64,000 bases of DNA from Pontiella agarivorans (GTDB lineage Bacteria > Verrucomicrobiota > Kiritimatiellia > Kiritimatiellales > Pontiellaceae). Below, one piece after another: positions 19,909 to 29,923 of the stretch. The notes beneath the pieces are model-generated. The model saw only the letters and a list, made by a program, of their open reading frames with translations, had not been told where the DNA came from and did not search any database. The translations under genes and the position numbers were made by a program. The stretch spans positions 558,001 through 622,000 of the forward strand of contig NZ_JARVCO010000012.1 in the NCBI RefSeq assembly GCF_034531395.1, given 5' to 3'. Each line of letters opens with the position of its first letter. Positions within the stretch are counted from its first letter, which is position 1.

Positions 19909-19941
19909 TTGCTGCTGGATTAAATGTAGAAGGAAGCTTTG

Positions 19942-22569
19942 ATGAAAAATATGATCTTTAGTGCACTGTTTTTTCTGGTACAGCACTCATTAGGAATCTC
20001 GATGGAAATGAATTCGGAGGGGCCGTCTACCATGGTGTTGGCGGCGAGCGGCCTTGCTCCCGAAATAGACTATCAGCTTCAGGGGAGCGATAGCCTGACC
20101 GCTTCCAACTGGATGAGTCAGGGGGCGGTCGTTTCCAATGCGGCGATGCATGACTGGCTTGTTTCCTCAGAAGCGCCAACAGCTTTTTTCCGTCTTAGCG
20201 AAAGTACGATGCCGCCCCTGAAAAATCCGTGGGCGAATGTGCAGGTCATGAATGATGACTGGCTTTATCTGGAGCGCGATACCGAAACACTTCCGGCGGA
20301 TGATGACAGCGCTTATGAACAGATTACCCTGCCTCATTCGTGGAATGCTTTTGATTCGGTGCATAGCAATGATTACCGGCGGGCATCGTCCTGGTACCGG
20401 AAGAATCTGGTGGTTACGCCGGATCAACTTTCCGAACGTTTGTATCTTCGTTTTAAAGGAGCCGCGCAACGAGCACGGGTCTATCTGAACGGATCGGAAC
20501 TATCGTTTCATAACGGAGGGTACAGCGCTTTTGTCTGCGAGTTGACAGGACAGGTTTCGGCGGGTACCAACCGGGTTGATGTCTGGGTGAATAATGAAAC
20601 GGTGAGCGATGTTGCCCCGCAGGCCAAACCCGCCAATAAAACCCCGGACTTTAATTCGTATGGAGGGCTGTACCGCTCGGTTCAGCTGATTTCTGCCCCG
20701 GAGATTTCGATTGCCCGCAACTATTATGGCGGCCCCGGATTCAGGCTGTGGAGTGAGTCTGTCAGTGAGGCGGAAGCGGATCTGAAGGTGAAGGTCTGTG
20801 TGGATAACGGATCGGCATCGGCACAATCCGTGGATGTCGGGGTTAAGGTACTGGATCTGGATGGTTCGGTGGTTTCTTTCGGGAGCCACACGGTAGAAGT
20901 CAGCGCCGGGTCTTTTACGAATGTCCTGGTTGCCATGCCGAGTCTGGTGACGCCGCGGTTGTGGAGTCCTGAACGGCCGGAGCGCTATCAAGTGGCTATT
21001 GAGCTGAAACAATCGGGCGCGTTAATTGATTCCGCTACGACCCGCTATGGTTTCCGTTCGTTCGCGATAACGGCGAATAATGGATTTTTCCTGAACGGGG
21101 AGCCGTACAAACTGCGCGGGGTCAACCGTCATCAGGACTATTTTGAGAAAGCCAATGCGCTTTCGTTGGAGCAGCATTGGCGCGATTTGCTGTTGATTAA
21201 GGAAGCGGGGTGCAACTGGCTGCGCCTGGCCCACTATCAGCAGGATGAATATGTCGTGCAGCTTTGTGACGAAATGGGGCTGCTGGTCTGGGAGGAAGTT
21301 CCATACCTTGGAGGAAATATTTCGGCGATGGAACCCACGTTGCGCTCCATGATGAAAGAGATGATTGAGCAGCACTTCAACCATGCTGCCATTGTGATTT
21401 GGGGCATGGGCAACGAAGTGTGGGCGAACGAGAATTTAAGGCAGTATCTGCTTCGAATGAAAGAGCTGGTTCATCAGGAGGATCCGTTGCGCAAAGCGGG
21501 TTATGTGACTGGGGATACTGACAATACATCCGATGCAGGCATTGGCGGTGCCGTCGATGTGCTGGGGTATAACCTCTATCGCGGTTGGTATGGTAATTCG
21601 TACACAGACCTGACGGATCGACTGAATGAACTGCACGCGAAGGATCCGGATACACCGTTAATTCTGACCGAGTTCGGGGCGGGTTCCGATTTGACGATTC
21701 GAAAGGAGAACCCGCGCTCAAAGGATTTCAGTATTGAATATCAGAATGATTTTCTGGAGTCGCATCTGCAACAGATTCAGCAGATTGATTGGCTTTGCGG
21801 AGCCAATTGGTGGGCGTTCTGCGATTTCGGTTCCGTGTGGCGCGGCGATTCTATGCCGCATATCAACCAGAAGGGAATGGTTACCTTTAAACGCGATAAA
21901 AAGCCGGGCTTTTATCTGATGAAATCCTACTGGAACGATGAGCCGGTGGTGTACATAGAAGCGGCTGAATGGACCCCGCGGGATGGCGATTCCAATAAGG
22001 TCTATCGCGTTTTCTCCAACATGAATGAAGTGGAGTTTTTCCAGAACGGCGTTTCACTCGGTACGCAATCCAATCTGTTTTCATGGTCGGTGGCTTTGGC
22101 AAATGGAACAAATACCCTGTCAGCCGTCGGGCGTTCCGGCTCTGTGATGCGCACGCATACCTGTGACATTCTGTTTGGAGAAGTCATCCCTGTTTCCGGG
22201 ATCACCGTAACCGATTATGAAGCAGGTAACCCCGGTCCGCATTTGGTGGATGGTGATTTGTCCACTCGTTGGGCTGCTGAGGGAACACCTACCATTACCT
22301 ATGACATGGGCGAAATGAAGCAGGTTTCGGGGCTTGATATCAAATTTTATAAAGGTGATGAACGAACATACGGTCTGGATATCAGCGGATCGGTGGATGG
22401 GCAGAACTGGAGTGAATATTTTTCCGGCAGCAGTTCGTTAAATTCCGGTTTGGTACGTTTTGACTTTTCCGGGACGCAGTCCATTCGGTTTATTCGCATT
22501 CAGTCGCACGGAAACAGTGCAAATAATTGGAACAGTTATTATGAGCTTATCCCCGTCGAGGTTCCTTAG
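19942..22569 (+). CDS. Exported GH2 beta-galactosidase-like enzyme with F5/8C module
   Basis: 875 aa; ATG 19942 with AGAAGGAAG about 7 nt upstream. Order: signal peptide (MKNMIFSALFFLVQHSLG); small module about 20-90 ending in TAFFRLSES; GH2 sugar-binding domain (about 95-245, LPHSWNAFDSVHSNDYRRAS); Ig-like domain; TIM barrel from about 375 (FFLNGEPYKLRGVNRHQDYF). E492 in IWGMGNEVW is the expected acid/base and E577 in ILTEFGAGSD the nucleophile. A beta-sandwich and a C-terminal F5/8 type C module (about 746-875) follow. This is a complete set for a retaining GH2 enzyme. The 1-1133 gene is a close paralogue. Unusually, the FFRL-type module, C-terminal in other proteins here, sits at the N-terminus. 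Likely exo-beta-galactosidase on algal galactan fragments (inference). Confidence 0.92.
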   Translation: MKNMIFSALFFLVQHSLGISMEMNSEGPSTMVLAASGLAPEIDYQLQGSDSLTASNWMSQGAVVSNAAMHDWLVSSEAPTAFFRLSESTMPPLKNPWANVQVMNDDWLYLERDTETLPADDDSAYEQITLPHSWNAFDSVHSNDYRRASSWYRKNLVVTPDQLSERLYLRFKGAAQRARVYLNGSELSFHNGGYSAFVCELTGQVSAGTNRVDVWVNNETVSDVAPQAKPANKTPDFNSYGGLYRSVQLISAPEISIARNYYGGPGFRLWSESVSEAEADLKVKVCVDNGSASAQSVDVGVKVLDLDGSVVSFGSHTVEVSAGSFTNVLVAMPSLVTPRLWSPERPERYQVAIELKQSGALIDSATTRYGFRSFAITANNGFFLNGEPYKLRGVNRHQDYFEKANALSLEQHWRDLLLIKEAGCNWLRLAHYQQDEYVVQLCDEMGLLVWEEVPYLGGNISAMEPTLRSMMKEMIEQHFNHAAIVIWGMGNEVWANENLRQYLLRMKELVHQEDPLRKAGYVTGDTDNTSDAGIGGAVDVLGYNLYRGWYGNSYTDLTDRLNELHAKDPDTPLILTEFGAGSDLTIRKENPRSKDFSIEYQNDFLESHLQQIQQIDWLCGANWWAFCDFGSVWRGDSMPHINQKGMVTFKRDKKPGFYLMKSYWNDEPVVYIEAAEWTPRDGDSNKVYRVFSNMNEVEFFQNGVSLGTQSNLFSWSVALANGTNTLSAVGRSGSVMRTHTCDILFGEVIPVSGITVTDYEAGNPGPHLVDGDLSTRWAAEGTPTITYDMGEMKQVSGLDIKFYKGDERTYGLDISGSVDGQNWSEYFSGSSSLNSGLVRFDFSGTQSIRFIRIQSHGNSANNWNSYYELIPVEVP

Positions 22570-22637
22570 TGAAAAACATTTGAAGCCGCATTTTAACATC
22601 GCACAAAATGAATAATGAAAACTGGGATCAAAAACAG

Positions 22638-22889
22638 ATGAATAACAGATTTAGTAATCGAATCTGGTTAGTCGCAGTATTCGCTTTGGTCGCGAGCGGT
22701 TGTCAGGCAAAACGGCCGCCTTCAGTCTATGTCCCTCCTGAGGGAGGGTTCGGCTTCCCGGACGGTCGTTCGGCCCTGATGCGGGTCGCGGCCCGGCTCC
22801 GTCACATCGCCGAAACCCAGTGGGGTTCCAAAAGCTACCTCTGTATGGAACGGCTCTACGAACTTGAACGTATGAAGGAGGCCATATGA
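22638..22889 (+). pseudogene. Truncated propeller gene fused to mobile-element-like 3' end
   Basis: The frame starts with a lipoprotein-like or signal peptide (MNNRFSNRIWLVAVFALVAS, then GC) and CQAKRPPSVYVPPEG. This matches the start of the intact propeller gene at 26033, which has CRAKRPPSAYVPPEG. Right after that the homology stops and the frame continues GFPDGRSALMRVAARLRHIA, TQWGSKSYLCMERLYELER. The latter is a basic, helical sequence that recalls the C-terminal ends of ORFs in bacterial mobile elements; I cannot name the family with certainty. The result is an 83-codon chimera with no propeller left. A hairpin lies just downstream. Probably not functional. An in-frame ATG at 22608 is an alternative start. 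Confidence 0.6.
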
Positions 22890-23064: not shown

Positions 23065-25860
23065 ATGAATAGAATAATCATAAGTTGGATACTGTCATTC
23101 TGGGTAGTATGGACCACTCAAGCTAAAACGAATGTGATCTATGTTGATTTCGGCCCTGCTGGCGACGCCTATTCCGACGTAACCGATCAATATAACAATA
23201 TCAGCTCTCCGAGTTCGATCAGCCTGAAAGACCGGTTAGGAAAAACAAGCGGCATCACTCTTCAATATGCACACTATGCCGGCACGTATAATTATGCCTC
23301 TGGAACTCCGCGTGATGCCGTATCCGGGATCAGCACCAACCTGACAAATGATCGCCTCTATGCCGGAACGGGAGGCTCAGCTAACCTGGGCGAATTCGGG
23401 CTCACCTTAACCCTTTCTGGCTTGGATTTGGAGGGGCACTGTACTATTGACGTCATTCCCAGCCCAACCGGTATTTCGAGCACCTGGAAAATCGTAACCG
23501 GAACAGGCGACACGACAGAATATATTCAAGACGGTACCACGAAGAGCACTTATTTTTCATGGAAAAACATTTACCCCGACACCAATGGCACCGTTGTCAT
23601 TACCGGCAGGGCCATCACCAACTCAAAATGGAAGAATGTAGGCATTTCCGGTCTAAAGGTTTCGGTGCATGCTGCGCCCACTCGTTTCCATGTAGCCTCG
23701 CTGAATGATCAGCAGGTAGAGATCGAGGCCACCGGAATGGATCTGGATTACCAATATAATCTGGAATATTGCACCAACCTATTTTCGAATGAGTGGCAAT
23801 CAATTGATGGCACCGTTTTTGCCGTTAAAGAGCATCGCTGGAACCAAACCAACGACGCCCCTGTCGCCTTTTTTCGCCTCAACGGCCAGGACAAGATGAT
23901 TGATATTCAAAAAGTGCACTCTCAGTTTATTGATTATTTCGCAGAGAACGCCCCCAACGACGCCACTACGCAAGCCAATCTGGACAGCATGCAGGCTGAC
24001 GGCACCTGGCCAGATGTCGATTATGAGAGTCAGCAGCGCTCCGGCTGGCCCACCACGATTCATTTGACCCGACTGACCTCGATGGCTCAATCCTATGTCG
24101 ATAGCCGCTCCAGTTTTTATAAAGATCCCGTCCTGCTCGATGCCATCCTGCTAGGGCTCCAGCATTGGTTGGATGAAGACTATAAAAATCCAAACTGGTT
24201 TACCTGGAAAATCAGTGTACCCCTTTACTTTTTACGCACATTCACCCTGCTTGGGGATGACCTTCCTGTATCCATGTATACCGAAGGGCGTTCGAAAATC
24301 TTTAAGAACACCGCGATGGATATGACCGGTGCCAATCAGGTTAGTTTGGCCACAAAAGTGTTCATGCGCGGTTTATTAGACAAAGATATTTCGCTTATGC
24401 ATCAGGCCAGCACCGTACTATGGAACGAACTATACATCACCACCGAAGAAGGCATTCAGCCGGACTGGAGTTACCACCAGCATGGACCGCAACAGCAGTT
24501 TGGTAATTATGGTTTAGGCATGACCGCCTTGATGATTGAACAAGGCCTATACATGCGCGATACCCTTTATGCCCCCGTAGCCTCGCGTCTTGAAATTTTG
24601 CGCAACTTTATGCTCGAAGGGGAAGCCTGGGTGATCTGGAAGGGACGGATGGATCTCAGCGGAGTCGGGCGCAACTTTTATCCGAACACGCAGACCTTGC
24701 GAGGCACCAAAGTGGCCAATCAACTTCGGGATATGATCAAGATCGATCCCGCCGCAAGGGTTGCCTATGAACAGGTGATTGATTCAACAAACCCTCGTCC
24801 CGGTCATCGTTCCTTCTGGCGCTCCGAGCTGGCTGTTCACCGTCGCCCGGAATGGTATAGTTCCGTAAAAATGACCTCCACGCGAGTCGTCGGCACCGAA
24901 ACGGCGAATGAACAAAATCTATTGGGCGCTCATCTTGCCGACGGTGTGCTTTATCTCTACCAAACCGGCGCAGAATATGAGGATGTAACCGGCCTATGGG
25001 ACTGGCACCGACTCCCCGGAACGACGTGCGATCAGGGGAACGACAACCTGCTCCCCAATGGCTGGAATAATGAGTATGGAAAATCGCCCTATGCCGGTGT
25101 CTTAAACGACGGCGAAAATGGTATGGCCGCGATGATTTATAAGCGTAAGAATCTGTCCGCCCGCAAAGCCTGGTTCTTCGGTGCCGACACAGTTACGTGC
25201 CTGGGCGCAGGCATCGGCGGAAGCACCTCCGGCTCCGTTTATACCTCCGTAGAGCAATCTTGGCTCAATGGTCCTGTAACTACCGCTTCAGGCCCTTTAA
25301 CAACCGGTACCAATACACTGGCAGCTGGCACCTGGGTTCAACACAACAATATCGGCTACCATCTTCTCCAACCCGCCACCGTTAATTTCGGAGAAGTAAC
25401 CGGAGACTGGCAGGATATCAATGGGTTCTATGAAAATGGTGCCATCACCGGTGATGTATTCAGCATTTGGATTGACCATGGGGCCTCACCCGTCAACGCC
25501 AGCTATGCATATACGCTCTACCCACAAACCGATGGAACCCAAATGGCTGATGCCATTCTGAATAATGAAACCAAGATTCTCAGCCAAACTGAAGACCTGT
25601 TAGCCATTGAAAACTCCGTTGGTGTTCAGGCCGTATTTTATAGCGCCGGAAGCCTCGCCAGCCAAAGCGGCATCCTTGTTGAAGTCAATCAACCCTGCCT
25701 GCTCATGTTGAAAAACGACCGCGTCATCGTCAGTGATCCGCTTCATTCCGCGGAAACCATCACTGTCACCATCGGTGGTGTTGCCCGGCAGATTGTGCTC
25801 CCCACTGACGGGAATGCAGGGCAACAGGTTTCCTTAGACCGAAGCCTCTTCGCCGAGTAA
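23065..25860 (+). CDS. Exported polysaccharide lyase family 8 enzyme with novel N-terminal module
   Basis: 931 aa, signal peptide MNRIIISWILSFWVVWTTQA. Residues about 22-210 form a beta-rich module I do not recognise (VIYVDFGPAGDAYSDVTDQY). About 215-275 is the FFRL-type module. From about 280 comes the PL8 alpha/alpha toroid with NPNWFTWKISVPLYF, then the beta-sandwich domains. The PL8 catalytic residues are all present: N424 (TGANQV), H473 and Y482 (YHQHGPQQQFGNYGLG) and R536 (GVGRNFYPN). H-to-Y spacing (9) and Y-to-R spacing (54) equal those of chondroitin AC lyase. PL8 enzymes cleave uronic-acid polymers (hyaluronan, chondroitin, xanthan) by beta-elimination. Codon usage favours C-ending codons more than the neighbours, suggesting later acquisition. 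It acts outside the cytoplasm; the exact substrate is unknown. Confidence 0.9.
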   Translation: MNRIIISWILSFWVVWTTQAKTNVIYVDFGPAGDAYSDVTDQYNNISSPSSISLKDRLGKTSGITLQYAHYAGTYNYASGTPRDAVSGISTNLTNDRLYAGTGGSANLGEFGLTLTLSGLDLEGHCTIDVIPSPTGISSTWKIVTGTGDTTEYIQDGTTKSTYFSWKNIYPDTNGTVVITGRAITNSKWKNVGISGLKVSVHAAPTRFHVASLNDQQVEIEATGMDLDYQYNLEYCTNLFSNEWQSIDGTVFAVKEHRWNQTNDAPVAFFRLNGQDKMIDIQKVHSQFIDYFAENAPNDATTQANLDSMQADGTWPDVDYESQQRSGWPTTIHLTRLTSMAQSYVDSRSSFYKDPVLLDAILLGLQHWLDEDYKNPNWFTWKISVPLYFLRTFTLLGDDLPVSMYTEGRSKIFKNTAMDMTGANQVSLATKVFMRGLLDKDISLMHQASTVLWNELYITTEEGIQPDWSYHQHGPQQQFGNYGLGMTALMIEQGLYMRDTLYAPVASRLEILRNFMLEGEAWVIWKGRMDLSGVGRNFYPNTQTLRGTKVANQLRDMIKIDPAARVAYEQVIDSTNPRPGHRSFWRSELAVHRRPEWYSSVKMTSTRVVGTETANEQNLLGAHLADGVLYLYQTGAEYEDVTGLWDWHRLPGTTCDQGNDNLLPNGWNNEYGKSPYAGVLNDGENGMAAMIYKRKNLSARKAWFFGADTVTCLGAGIGGSTSGSVYTSVEQSWLNGPVTTASGPLTTGTNTLAAGTWVQHNNIGYHLLQPATVNFGEVTGDWQDINGFYENGAITGDVFSIWIDHGASPVNASYAYTLYPQTDGTQMADAILNNETKILSQTEDLLAIENSVGVQAVFYSAGSLASQSGILVEVNQPCLLMLKNDRVIVSDPLHSAETITVTIGGVARQIVLPTDGNAGQQVSLDRSLFAE

Positions 25861-26032
25861 TTTTAGGTTTCAGAAGATCAGAAATATAATTTGGTGGAGC
25901 AACAGGTAAGAAGTGCAGATAAAATGTTTTTCCGCATTAGGCTGTCACAACCGGCTGGCGGTAATTAAATCAATCTGAGGTACAGTTCAGATGCTGTATT
26001 TTAAGACAAAACATATGAGGTATGAAGAGAAT

Positions 26033-27427
26033 ATGATCCATAAAGTAATTAAAAAAAGATGTGAACGAAGTGCGTGTGTTCTCGCGGTTTTGGTTCTTAC
26101 AATGGGGGTGTGCCGGGCAAAGCGGCCGCCGTCTGCTTATGTCCCGCCGGAAGGGTTGGTTTATGGAGCGGCATTTATTGATCGGTTTCTACCTGTTCCG
26201 GTTCACGGTGAATTGCGCTCTGATGTTTGGGGCGCGACCAATGTGATTCCGCGCGCGGTTGAAAACGGAATCGAGGATGCCGAATATTCCTATTGGGGCG
26301 GAAATATTATTGTGGGGGATGACGGCAAAAACCATCTGTTCGTATGCCGCTGGCCGGAAGATAATGTAAAGGGCGGGGGCAAAGCCTCCGGGCATCATAC
26401 GTGGTGGTCTTCAGTTGTCGTGCATGCCGTCAGCGATAACCCGCTGGGTCCGTATAAGGTGATCGATGAAGTCGGTCCGGGGCACAATCCGGAGATCTAT
26501 CGCCTGGCGGACGGAAGCTATAAAATCGGAGTGATGCGTAAATCCTATCATGGCCCGACGCTGAATGGTCCCTGGACGCTTCTGGACACGACTCTGCACA
26601 TCAAAAAGCCGGGAAGTTACATCAATGAATCCAATAAAACATTTGTGCCCCGTGAAGATGGGAGTGTGCTGATGATGAACAAGAACGGCGTTGTTTTTAT
26701 CAGTGAAAAAGGGGATGAAAATTTTGTTCAGGTCACCGGCGGTGTATATCCCAAACTGCCCGGCGAATATCTTCTGGAAGATCCCGTCATCTGGAAAGAC
26801 GAGGTGCAATATAATCTGATTGTGAACGACTGCTGGGGACGCGCGGCTTTTTATATGCGTTCGAAAGATGGACTTAAATGGAAATGGGCACCGGGACTGG
26901 CCTATACCCCGGATATTATGAAACATGAGGGCGGAACGTCGGAGAAATGGTGGAAGTTTGAGCGGCCGAAAGTCCGGCAGGATCAATACGGACGGGCAAC
27001 GCATATGAATTTTGCTGTGATCGATGTTTATAAAGATGATGATCTGGCCAACGACAACCACAGCTCAAAAAATATAGTTATTCCGTTGGAGGTCCCGCGT
27101 CGTCTTCAGATTTTGAATACGGCGCCCATCACGGCGGCTACTGCGGAAATTAAAGTTAAAATTTTGGCAGAAGAAGGTTTTGATCCCCGTCGGGATGTGG
27201 ACCGGACATCGTTGTCTTTCGGCGCGCCGGAAGCGGTTAATTTCGGAAAAGGCTGTGCGCCCATTTCAACAGAGGTTTCGGGAGCGGATTTGCTGGTTAC
27301 CTTTGCTGGCCGGGGAAATGGAATCTCTCCGGATCATTATGCCGCAAAGTTAATCGGCCGTAAAACGGATGGCAGTCTGCTGTTTGGATTTGCAACGTTG
27401 CCGACGGCTGTTGTTGCGGACGAGTAG
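26033..27427 (+). CDS. Exported GH43-like propeller protein, subgroup B
   Basis: 464 aa from ATG 26033 (GAAGAG a few nt upstream); in-frame ATGs at 25991 and 26015 would only add a polar leader. Signal peptide SACVLAVLVLTMGVCRA. The propeller covers about 30-350: ENGIEDAEYSYWGGNIIV, GPGHNPEIYRLADGSYKIG, LLEDPVIWKDEVQYNLIVND and NDNHSSKNIVIP. At the blade-1 position where relatives at 1186, 3875 and 11006 have YWDG, this protein has YWGG (G89), so the GH43-type base is missing. A beta-sandwich tail of about 110 aa (AEEGFDPRRDVDRTSLSFGA) is shared with the 41109 and 48108 proteins. Either a different catalytic residue is used or the protein only binds sugar. It sits between PL8 and a DUF5703 enzyme. 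Confidence 0.78.
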   Translation: MIHKVIKKRCERSACVLAVLVLTMGVCRAKRPPSAYVPPEGLVYGAAFIDRFLPVPVHGELRSDVWGATNVIPRAVENGIEDAEYSYWGGNIIVGDDGKNHLFVCRWPEDNVKGGGKASGHHTWWSSVVVHAVSDNPLGPYKVIDEVGPGHNPEIYRLADGSYKIGVMRKSYHGPTLNGPWTLLDTTLHIKKPGSYINESNKTFVPREDGSVLMMNKNGVVFISEKGDENFVQVTGGVYPKLPGEYLLEDPVIWKDEVQYNLIVNDCWGRAAFYMRSKDGLKWKWAPGLAYTPDIMKHEGGTSEKWWKFERPKVRQDQYGRATHMNFAVIDVYKDDDLANDNHSSKNIVIPLEVPRRLQILNTAPITAATAEIKVKILAEEGFDPRRDVDRTSLSFGAPEAVNFGKGCAPISTEVSGADLLVTFAGRGNGISPDHYAAKLIGRKTDGSLLFGFATLPTAVVADE

Positions 27428-27490: not shown

Positions 27491-29923
27491 ATGGCAGGAC
27501 GATGCGCAGTATGGGGATGGATGATTTGTGTGTGCGGAGCAGTGTTCGGAAGCGAATACTGGACCGACCGGTATGATGTTGAATGGAAAACACCAAGCCG
27601 GGATGTGCAGGGAAATATGCCGGTTGGTGCCGGGGATATGGCCTGCAATGTCTGGGTGGAGGAGAAGACCGGCGATCTCATGTTCTATATGCAGCGAAGC
27701 GGTTCGTTTTCTGAAATCGGAGAGCATATTAAATTGGGACGTATCCGCATTGCTCTTGATCCAAATCCGCTGAAGGGTTGTGCGGACTTCTCCCAGCGTT
27801 TGGTTCTGAAGGACGGTTATATTTCGATTAAGGCCACGGGCAAAGGCAGGGGCGATTTTGAAACGCGCATTAAACTCTGGGTTGATCAGTTTACGCATTC
27901 AGTGAATGTGACCATCGATGCGGACCAACCGGTCCGCTGGTCGGCGGCTTATGAAAGCTGGCGTACCGAGGATAAAAGTTTAACGGAGCCGGAGGATAAG
28001 ATTGAAAAAGGACATATTGGAACGTCTCGTTTCGGTTCGTTTGCTTATGTGCTGGCTCCTTTTGAAGTGATTAAACGGAAGGATGAAGGTTTTTCGTTCG
28101 ATCAAAACTCGGTCCTGTTTTATCACCGGAATCCCGAAGAGACCCTGTCGCCGAATTTCGGGATTCAACAGCAGGGGCTGGAGTCATACAAAGATCAGCT
28201 CACCAATGTGATTGCCAATCGGACGATGGGCGGCCGGCTGTTCGCGGAGAATGCGATTCCGGCGGGCGAGGGCGAAGGTAAATATTATAAGACCGATTTT
28301 AAATCCCTGATCCTTGAAAGTAAGACGGCGGCAAAAAAACATCATCTTTTTGTGGCAACGCATATTGCGCAACGGGAGGATGTAAAAGAATGGGTTGCTG
28401 AGCTGAATGCTTCCTGTAAGGACGTTCTTAAAACGCAGGGTAATTTTGCAAGGAATCAAGCGTGGTGGAATCAGTTCTGGGAGCGCAGTTATATTGTGGT
28501 GAACCCGGATCATAAGGATGAAACGTCGCCGGTTTGGCAGATAGGCCGAAACTATAATTTGATGCGATACGTGCTTGGAGGAAATGCATATGGCGAATTT
28601 CCGTCCAAGTTTAACGGTGGAAATCTGACGTTTGATGACAGACCGGGCTATGATCCGGATTGGCGCAGATGGGGCGGCGATTTTTTTACGGCTCAAAATC
28701 AGCGATTGCTTTACTGGCCAATGTTGAAATCGGGTGATTTTGACATGATGATACCGCAGTTTGATCTCTATATGATGGCATTGCCCGGCGCAATGATTCG
28801 GGTGCGTGATGCATTCGGGCATGGCGGCGCAGCGTTCTGTGAGAATACAGATCCCTCGGGAATCAATATCCCATTTTGTTATGGCTGGACCAATGCGCCG
28901 GGGCACTGGGCGGAACGTGGCGAGGAAATTCCGTTCTGCGATCCCCGGGTGCGCGGCCGTATCGGCGCAGCGGCGCCGGTTGAGAAAGGGGTGATGATTA
29001 ATCCGTCGCTTTCCTATTATCATGCCTTGCAGCTTGAATTTTCGTATATGCTGTTGGAGCGTTATCTCTACACGGGCGAGAGTTTCGAACGGTACATGCC
29101 GTTTATTCGCGAGTCGCTGAAGTTTTATGATGAGCATTACCAGATTCGTGAAAAAGCCCGGAGCGGCCGGACGCTGGATGAAAACGGGAAACTGGTGATC
29201 TATCCGTCGCAGGCATGCGAGGCTTACAAAGGAGTGAAAAATCCGGTTGATGCTGTTTCGGGGTTACGCGCCTGTTTGGAGACCTTGCTCTCCATCGACG
29301 TTCCGTATATTTCGCAGGGAGATAAGGAGTACTATCAGGACTTTCTTAAGCGCGTTCCGGATTTTCCGTTCGGGGAGTTGGAAGGACACCGGGTGATGAG
29401 TGCAGCAGAGGGGGCCCCGCCGGCTGAAAGCAGCGAGTCGCCCCAATGGTATCCGCTCTTTCCGTATAACCGGTTTACGCTGCTGGATGATGAAATGGAA
29501 ACGTTTCACAATACCTGGAAATATGACAACAGTATGCGTCGCACACATATCGGCTGGAATCAGAGCGGTATTTTTCTGGCACGGATGGGCCTGACAGATG
29601 AAGCACTGGAATATCATAAACTCAAACTGGGCGATGATACCAAGCGGCGATTCCCCATCTATTGGGGACCGAACTATGATGGTATTCCCGATTTGAATCA
29701 GGGCGGCGCCGGCATGATCGGTTTGCAGGAAATGCTGATGCAAACGTTCGGAGATAAGATCCTGATTCTGCCCGCCTGGCCGAAGGATGTGGATGTCGAT
29801 TTTAAGCTGCATGCACCGAAGAATACGACGGTTGAGGTTTGTTTCCGCAACGGGCGAGTAGAAAAACTGATTGTAACCCCTGCGCGTCGGCAGTCCGATG
29901 TGGTGAACTGCTGGGAAAAATAA
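27491..29923 (+). CDS. Exported DUF5703 / GH95-like (alpha/alpha)6 glycosidase
   Basis: 810 aa, AGGAG about 10 nt before ATG 27491; signal peptide WGWMICVCGAVFGS. The N-terminal beta domain has PSRDVQGNMPVGAGDMACNV and GDLMFYMQRSGSFSEIGEHI, typical of the DUF5703 family related to GH95 alpha-L-fucosidases/galactosidases. The remainder is a helical barrel (about 310-740) with YNLMRYVLGGNAYGEFPSKF and GGDFFTAQNQRLLYWPMLKSG. A short beta domain closes it (MLMQTFGDKILILPAWPKDV), as in GH95. An inverting exo-glycosidase function is likely from the fold; the sugar is not predictable. It follows the 26033 propeller gene by 63 bp and is the last gene before a 680-bp gap, so it may end a transcription unit. 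Confidence 0.8.
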   Translation: MAGRCAVWGWMICVCGAVFGSEYWTDRYDVEWKTPSRDVQGNMPVGAGDMACNVWVEEKTGDLMFYMQRSGSFSEIGEHIKLGRIRIALDPNPLKGCADFSQRLVLKDGYISIKATGKGRGDFETRIKLWVDQFTHSVNVTIDADQPVRWSAAYESWRTEDKSLTEPEDKIEKGHIGTSRFGSFAYVLAPFEVIKRKDEGFSFDQNSVLFYHRNPEETLSPNFGIQQQGLESYKDQLTNVIANRTMGGRLFAENAIPAGEGEGKYYKTDFKSLILESKTAAKKHHLFVATHIAQREDVKEWVAELNASCKDVLKTQGNFARNQAWWNQFWERSYIVVNPDHKDETSPVWQIGRNYNLMRYVLGGNAYGEFPSKFNGGNLTFDDRPGYDPDWRRWGGDFFTAQNQRLLYWPMLKSGDFDMMIPQFDLYMMALPGAMIRVRDAFGHGGAAFCENTDPSGINIPFCYGWTNAPGHWAERGEEIPFCDPRVRGRIGAAAPVEKGVMINPSLSYYHALQLEFSYMLLERYLYTGESFERYMPFIRESLKFYDEHYQIREKARSGRTLDENGKLVIYPSQACEAYKGVKNPVDAVSGLRACLETLLSIDVPYISQGDKEYYQDFLKRVPDFPFGELEGHRVMSAAEGAPPAESSESPQWYPLFPYNRFTLLDDEMETFHNTWKYDNSMRRTHIGWNQSGIFLARMGLTDEALEYHKLKLGDDTKRRFPIYWGPNYDGIPDLNQGGAGMIGLQEMLMQTFGDKILILPAWPKDVDVDFKLHAPKNTTVEVCFRNGRVEKLIVTPARRQSDVVNCWEK

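Follow-up and report, generated by a model that had tools for sequence, protein, structure and literature searches.

A Pontiella PL8 lyase of new architecture adjoining a mobile-element scar

Introduction

The roles that the conserved residues of PL8 lyases play in catalysis are established for the family, and its known specificities include that of a mannuronan/alginate lyase (7r2x). For chondroitin AC lyase, Arg292 has been reported to bind substrate (PMC8733870). In chondroitinase ABC I, an N-terminal two-layer β-sandwich was shown to control activity and substrate handling (PMC10197112). Within the genus Pontiella, P. desulfatans and P. sulfatireligans both encode PL8 and grow on chondroitin sulfate (PMC7356697). 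Agar and carrageenan support growth of Pontiella agarivorans NLcol2 (Kiritimatiellota), whereas alginic acid and fucoidan do not; its average amino acid identity (AAI) with P. sulfatireligans is 68.5% (PMC10880615).

Here, we analyzed a 64,000-nt stretch (hereafter, the window) of contig C12 (1,265,434 bases) from the NLcol2 assembly, which comprises 12 contigs and 4,436,865 bases. Pfam scans of the main ORFs in the window detected GH2, two GH97 and GH43-like genes, CBM96 proteins and many sulfatases. These GH genes and sulfatases make it plausible, though they do not prove, that the locus is otherwise suited to galactans. Among them lies a PL8 gene (Table 1) whose product shares with Pedobacter heparinus chondroitinase AC (1cb8/1hm2) the three-domain architecture and the positions of the N, H, Y, R and E residues and of Asn374, but falls in a separate clade of the PL8 tree and carries an extra N-terminal module and a linker domain. 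It represents a new architectural variant of PL8 adjoining a mobile-element scar.

Results

Table 1. Features of the PL8 gene and its flanks, in window coordinates
Feature	Position	Strand	Evidence
GH2 with F5/8-type domain, 5′ of the PL8 gene	19939..22569	+	Pfam
Truncated GH43/117-like gene, start only (signal peptide region)	22608..22745	+	Match to the 25991-27427 gene, 46.5% identical over 43 aa (E 1e-9)
Mutator-type (IS256-like) transposase, C-terminal remnant	22746..22889	+	68% identity to an annotated Candidatus Tenderia transposase, E 4e-9
PL8 lyase gene, 931 aa	23065..25860	+	Pfam Lyase_8 E 2.9e-73, Lyase_8_N 1.4e-33, Lyase_8_C 5.1e-8
Probable signal peptide, residues 1-21, MNRIIISWILSFWVVWTTQAK	23065..23127	+	Judged from the sequence itself
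N-terminal module, residues 22-204, predicted CBM-like β-sandwich	23128..23676	+	Copies in other Pontiella PL8s, AlphaFold2 model, VIA
Small β domain/linker, residues 205-278	23677..23898	+	Resembles the N-terminal part of the neighboring GH2
Lyase_8_N α-helical domain, residues 299-559	23959..24741	+	Pfam
Lyase_8 super-sandwich domain, residues 581-822	24805..25530	+	Pfam
Lyase_8_C domain, residues 838-900	25576..25764	+	Pfam
N424 codon (Asn175 of chondroitinase AC)	24334..24336	+	Alignment
H473 codon (His225 of chondroitinase AC)	24481..24483	+	Alignment
Y482 codon (Tyr234 of chondroitinase AC)	24508..24510	+	Alignment
R536 codon (Arg288 of chondroitinase AC)	24670..24672	+	Alignment
E612 codon (Glu371 of chondroitinase AC)	24898..24900	+	Alignment
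GH43/117-like putative glycoside hydrolase, 3′ of the PL8 gene	25991..27427	+	Intact relative of the truncated one; member of a tandemly duplicated family

Judged by its sequence, the gene product is a true PL8 lyase. The three PL8 domains occur in order, each above the Pfam cut-off, and the catalytic Asn, His, Tyr, Arg and Glu are all kept at aligned positions; N615 aligns with Asn374 of chondroitinase AC. The best solved relative is chondroitinase AC 1cb8 (E 1.2e-96, 328 bits), followed by a mannuronate lyase at 123 bits. An initial sequence-only reading had claimed a complete N/H/Y/R set with the H-Y and Y-R spacing of chondroitin AC lyase, and both points hold: the two spacings are 9 and 54 residues in this protein as in the Pedobacter enzyme, and the N-H spacing is 49 compared to 50.

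Outside the catalytic set, the substrate-binding positions differ from those of chondroitinase AC. Trp127 is replaced by F379, Trp427 has no aligned partner, and Arg292 is absent, with Pro or Tyr in its place according to the alignment used. The Arg292 position is also changed in the other module-bearing PL8 relatives. On NCBIfam model NF043001, the chondroitinase-AC equivalog, the protein scores 353.9 bits, far below the curated cut-off of 1000 bits. The changes at Trp127 and Arg292, together with this low equivalog score, suggest that chondroitin may not be the substrate.

The N-terminal module returned no Pfam match at E ≤ 10 and none in NCBIfam, and a PDB sequence search produced nothing beyond a capsid hit attributable to chance (E 0.25). 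The genome lacks the YxiM-type Pfam family PF21254, and a scan of viral contigs found no copy of the module. Copies with 58-62% identity are present in the PL8 of SZUA-380, in the PL8 of P. sulfatireligans and, at both ends of the protein, in a paralogue on contig C10 of the same genome, so the module, common to three other Pontiella PL8 proteins, is not a singleton. Across 387 genomes of the phylum, profile searching retrieved only weak further relatives, namely small secreted proteins, some of them PEP-CTERM-tailed, and a DUF4886 protein. The latter (L091:436-3417, from genome G183, which belongs to a different family of the class) matches at E 1.9e-5 and, on visual inspection, appears to contain two related domains.

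AlphaFold2 models of the module, made with three sequences, are all-β, with low-to-moderate confidence (pLDDT 62 and 68). Compared using VIA, the two models match the YxiM N-domain with Z scores of 10.2 and 7.7 and CBM61 with 7.9 and 7.7; malectin-like domains reach 10.1 with the first model. The best Foldseek E value for these models (pLDDT 62-68) is 1.7e-3. The predicted jelly-roll fold spans the whole module (best Z 7.7-10.2), whereas identity to these domains is about 5-15%, with no sequence-family match. As Z scores near 8 are weak by the structure-comparison tool's own warning, a CBM-like jelly roll is likely but not proven, and we consider the module a likely β-sandwich of the CBM61/YxiM/malectin type. 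The claim that the N-terminus matches nothing thus stands for the sequence families of Pfam and NCBIfam, and fails with regard to the predicted fold, at low-to-moderate confidence, and to the copies in other Pontiella PL8s. A precedent for an N-terminal β-sandwich on a chondroitin lyase is chondroitinase ABC I. The linker that follows the module resembles a stretch inside the neighboring GH2 gene (C12:577984-578202; tblastn E 0.0021), and its model confidence is low.

In the PL8 tree, the window gene groups with the PL8s of P. sulfatireligans and SZUA-380 (support 98), the C10 paralogue joins them at 100, and all lie inside a mostly-Pontiella clade (99). This placement among genus enzymes argues against a foreign origin. 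The catalytic part is 67% identical to that of the P. sulfatireligans PL8, close to the 68.5% AAI and thus matching genome-wide relatedness within the genus. The P. sulfatireligans protein (L038:7158-9944) has the same architecture, module included. The C10 paralogue (C10:882.6 kb, L007:2619-6575, 1318 aa) also combines module and PL8, its catalytic part being 53% identical, and differs in bearing its second module copy at the C-terminus and in adjoining GH88/105 genes. PL8 is present in 11 of the 28 genus genomes. One genome, G404 (probably P. sulfatireligans), has an unusually large set of 18 PL8-domain matches.

Pfam scans of the main ORFs and the genome-wide GH88 matches reveal neither a further PL family nor GH88/105 genes in the window, in agreement with the sequence-only reading that this is the only uronan lyase of the locus. 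The genome has five GH88/105 matches, every one on C10, and four of these (886.7-910.7 kb) lie next to two PL8 paralogues, which form part of a uronan cluster there. The P. sulfatireligans orthologue overlaps the end of a λ-carrageenase-like gene, whose domain, like that in the C10 cluster, is presumably GH150; BNR, GH88/105 and GH95 genes follow. We note the unexpected pairing of these GH150-like genes (L038:2695-7161 in P. sulfatireligans and L006:4771-7653 in the C10 cluster) with PL8 and GH88/105.

Upstream of the PL8 gene, ORF 22608-22889 is a fusion, with a GH43/117-like gene start as its first 46 residues and a mutator-type transposase tail behind it, which indicates that a relative of the downstream GH43/117-like gene was cut by a mobile element just 5′ of the PL8 start. 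The transposase match covers the C-terminal 46 aa, and the other matches of the remnant are annotated "transposase, mutator type"; the mobile-element fragment reported beside the gene is therefore real. It occurs in a single copy in the genome and was found in none of 27 congeners. At the borders of the PL8 gene, a search for repeats gave short chance-like matches only, with no clear inverted repeats and no target-site duplication.

On the 3′ side, the protein encoded at 25991-27427 has neither a Pfam nor a PDB match. Other members of its tandem family lie at L008:12154-16305. Just 3′ of this gene is a DUF5703 protein with no assigned activity (27491-29923).

For codon tests, the background was 400 kb of sampled genome stretches plus the window, with genes taken as plain ORFs of at least 300 aa. 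A few of these are shadow ORFs (e.g., L006:7827-8987), which widen both the plus- and minus-strand distributions and make the skew test conservative. The PL8 gene does use more C-ending codons than its neighbors, as first noticed, with a C3 of 0.38 compared to 0.16-0.27 in the real plus-strand neighbors. However, its GC3 of 0.54 lies within the neighbor range of 0.41-0.56 (host mean 0.57, sd 0.05), so the difference is one of skew and not of GC, and the description of its base usage as foreign is not supported.

GC skew at fourfold-degenerate sites is −0.43 in this gene. Among 141 sampled plus-strand genes (mean 0.20, sd 0.16), not one has a skew this low, but the value lies inside the minus-strand range: of 52 minus-strand genes (mean −0.24, sd 0.17), 7 fall below it. 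Every block of the gene, module included, has a negative skew, and codon log-likelihood favors the minus-strand class by 40 nats. Orthologues (+0.04 and +0.29), that of P. sulfatireligans among them, and the genome's own paralogues (+0.13 and +0.14) are without the anomaly, so the make-up of the protein is not its source. The C-ending codon excess is a strand signature. Some codon oddity remains relative to minus-strand genes, with a deviance of 0.188 that exceeds 16 of the 17 long minus-strand genes.

Discussion

We consider it probable that the window gene encodes a secreted PL8 lyase from the genus's own stock, with a CBM-like module and a sulfated-uronan substrate, and that the gene recently moved or was inverted to its present place. 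The enzyme would act by β-elimination on a uronic-acid-containing, probably sulfated polysaccharide. By analogy with the family, Y482 would serve as general base and acid with the assistance of H473, N424 would neutralize the uronate, and R536 and E612 would complete the site, while the CBM-like β-sandwich may help hold the polymer. The unsaturated products would need GH88/105 hydrolases and, because these are encoded only on C10, mostly beside the two PL8 paralogues, the window enzyme would work in trans with the C10 cluster.

A chondroitin-sulfate-like or other sulfated uronan is the most likely substrate, based on the contents of the PL8 loci and on the growth of the PL8-encoding P. desulfatans and P. 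sulfatireligans on chondroitin sulfate. Against chondroitin, the GH150-like neighbors in two PL8 loci point to algal galactans, and an algal uronate-bearing galactan is the main rival substrate. Under that hypothesis, the lyase would cut a uronic-acid-bearing red-algal sulfated galactan, jointly with the galactan enzymes around it, and not a chondroitin-like polymer. The GH150 λ-carrageenase-like gene that immediately precedes the P. sulfatireligans orthologue and its counterpart in the C10 cluster are consistent with this, as are the surrounding GH2, GH97 and GH43-like genes and many sulfatases, the altered subsite residues, the growth of the strain on agar and carrageenan, and the fold matches of the module, which include CBM61 and a CBM that binds porphyran. 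A fold match, however, says nothing of binding specificity, the window contains no GH88/105 for processing the product, and the PL8 gene seems to have come to its present place only recently. We also know of no PL8 specific for a uronic-acid-bearing red-algal sulfated galactan. We therefore regard a galactan substrate as possible, though doubtful.

With respect to the origin of the gene, a C3 excess that takes the form of a strand-skew signature is explained better by relocation or inversion than by import. The foreign origin proposed from the sequence alone is not borne out: GC3, skew, placement within Pontiella and identity at the AAI level make import unlikely and fit a gene of the genus's own that was inverted or relocated. 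GC3 equal to that of the neighbors and a phylogeny in line with the genus are also the two observations that the sequence-only reading had named as refuting it. The inversion or relocation would have been recent and was perhaps brought about by the mobile element whose tail remains on the 5′ side. Two observations count against this reading, namely that the codon oddity persists relative to minus-strand genes and that the site lacks the target-site duplication or inverted repeats of a clean insertion. The alternative is a recent horizontal import of the gene from another organism, the donor perhaps being an unsampled Pontiella strain that carried the gene on its lagging strand. Such an import could account for the transposase scar, the residual codon oddity and the uneven distribution of PL8 across the genus, with module-bearing relatives in few congeners. 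But the GC3 is that of the neighbors, the nearest relatives are Pontiella enzymes with the identity expected from AAI, and the skew anomaly is the host's own minus-strand signature; we judge import improbable.

That the enzyme is a mannuronan/alginate lyase is very improbable, since the second-ranked solved relative, at 123 bits, scores far under the 328 bits of chondroitinase AC and alginic acid does not support growth of the strain (PMC10880615). A literature search on PL8 combined with mannuronan or GH150 found nothing on such a combination. There is a slim chance that the module is the first of a new carbohydrate-binding family, one encountered almost only in Pontiella to date, and that module and altered subsites together signal a PL8 specificity not described before, directed at a sulfated, uronic-acid-bearing algal polysaccharide that is broken down jointly with GH150-type enzymes.

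For the relocated genus-own lyase that we favor, the codon pattern illustrates that an oddity with a foreign look can turn out to be a replication-strand signature left by the relocation of a gene within its lineage. Pontiella PL8 lyases with an unassigned sugar-binding-like module and altered subsites are candidates for new specificities in the breakdown of marine sulfated polysaccharides.
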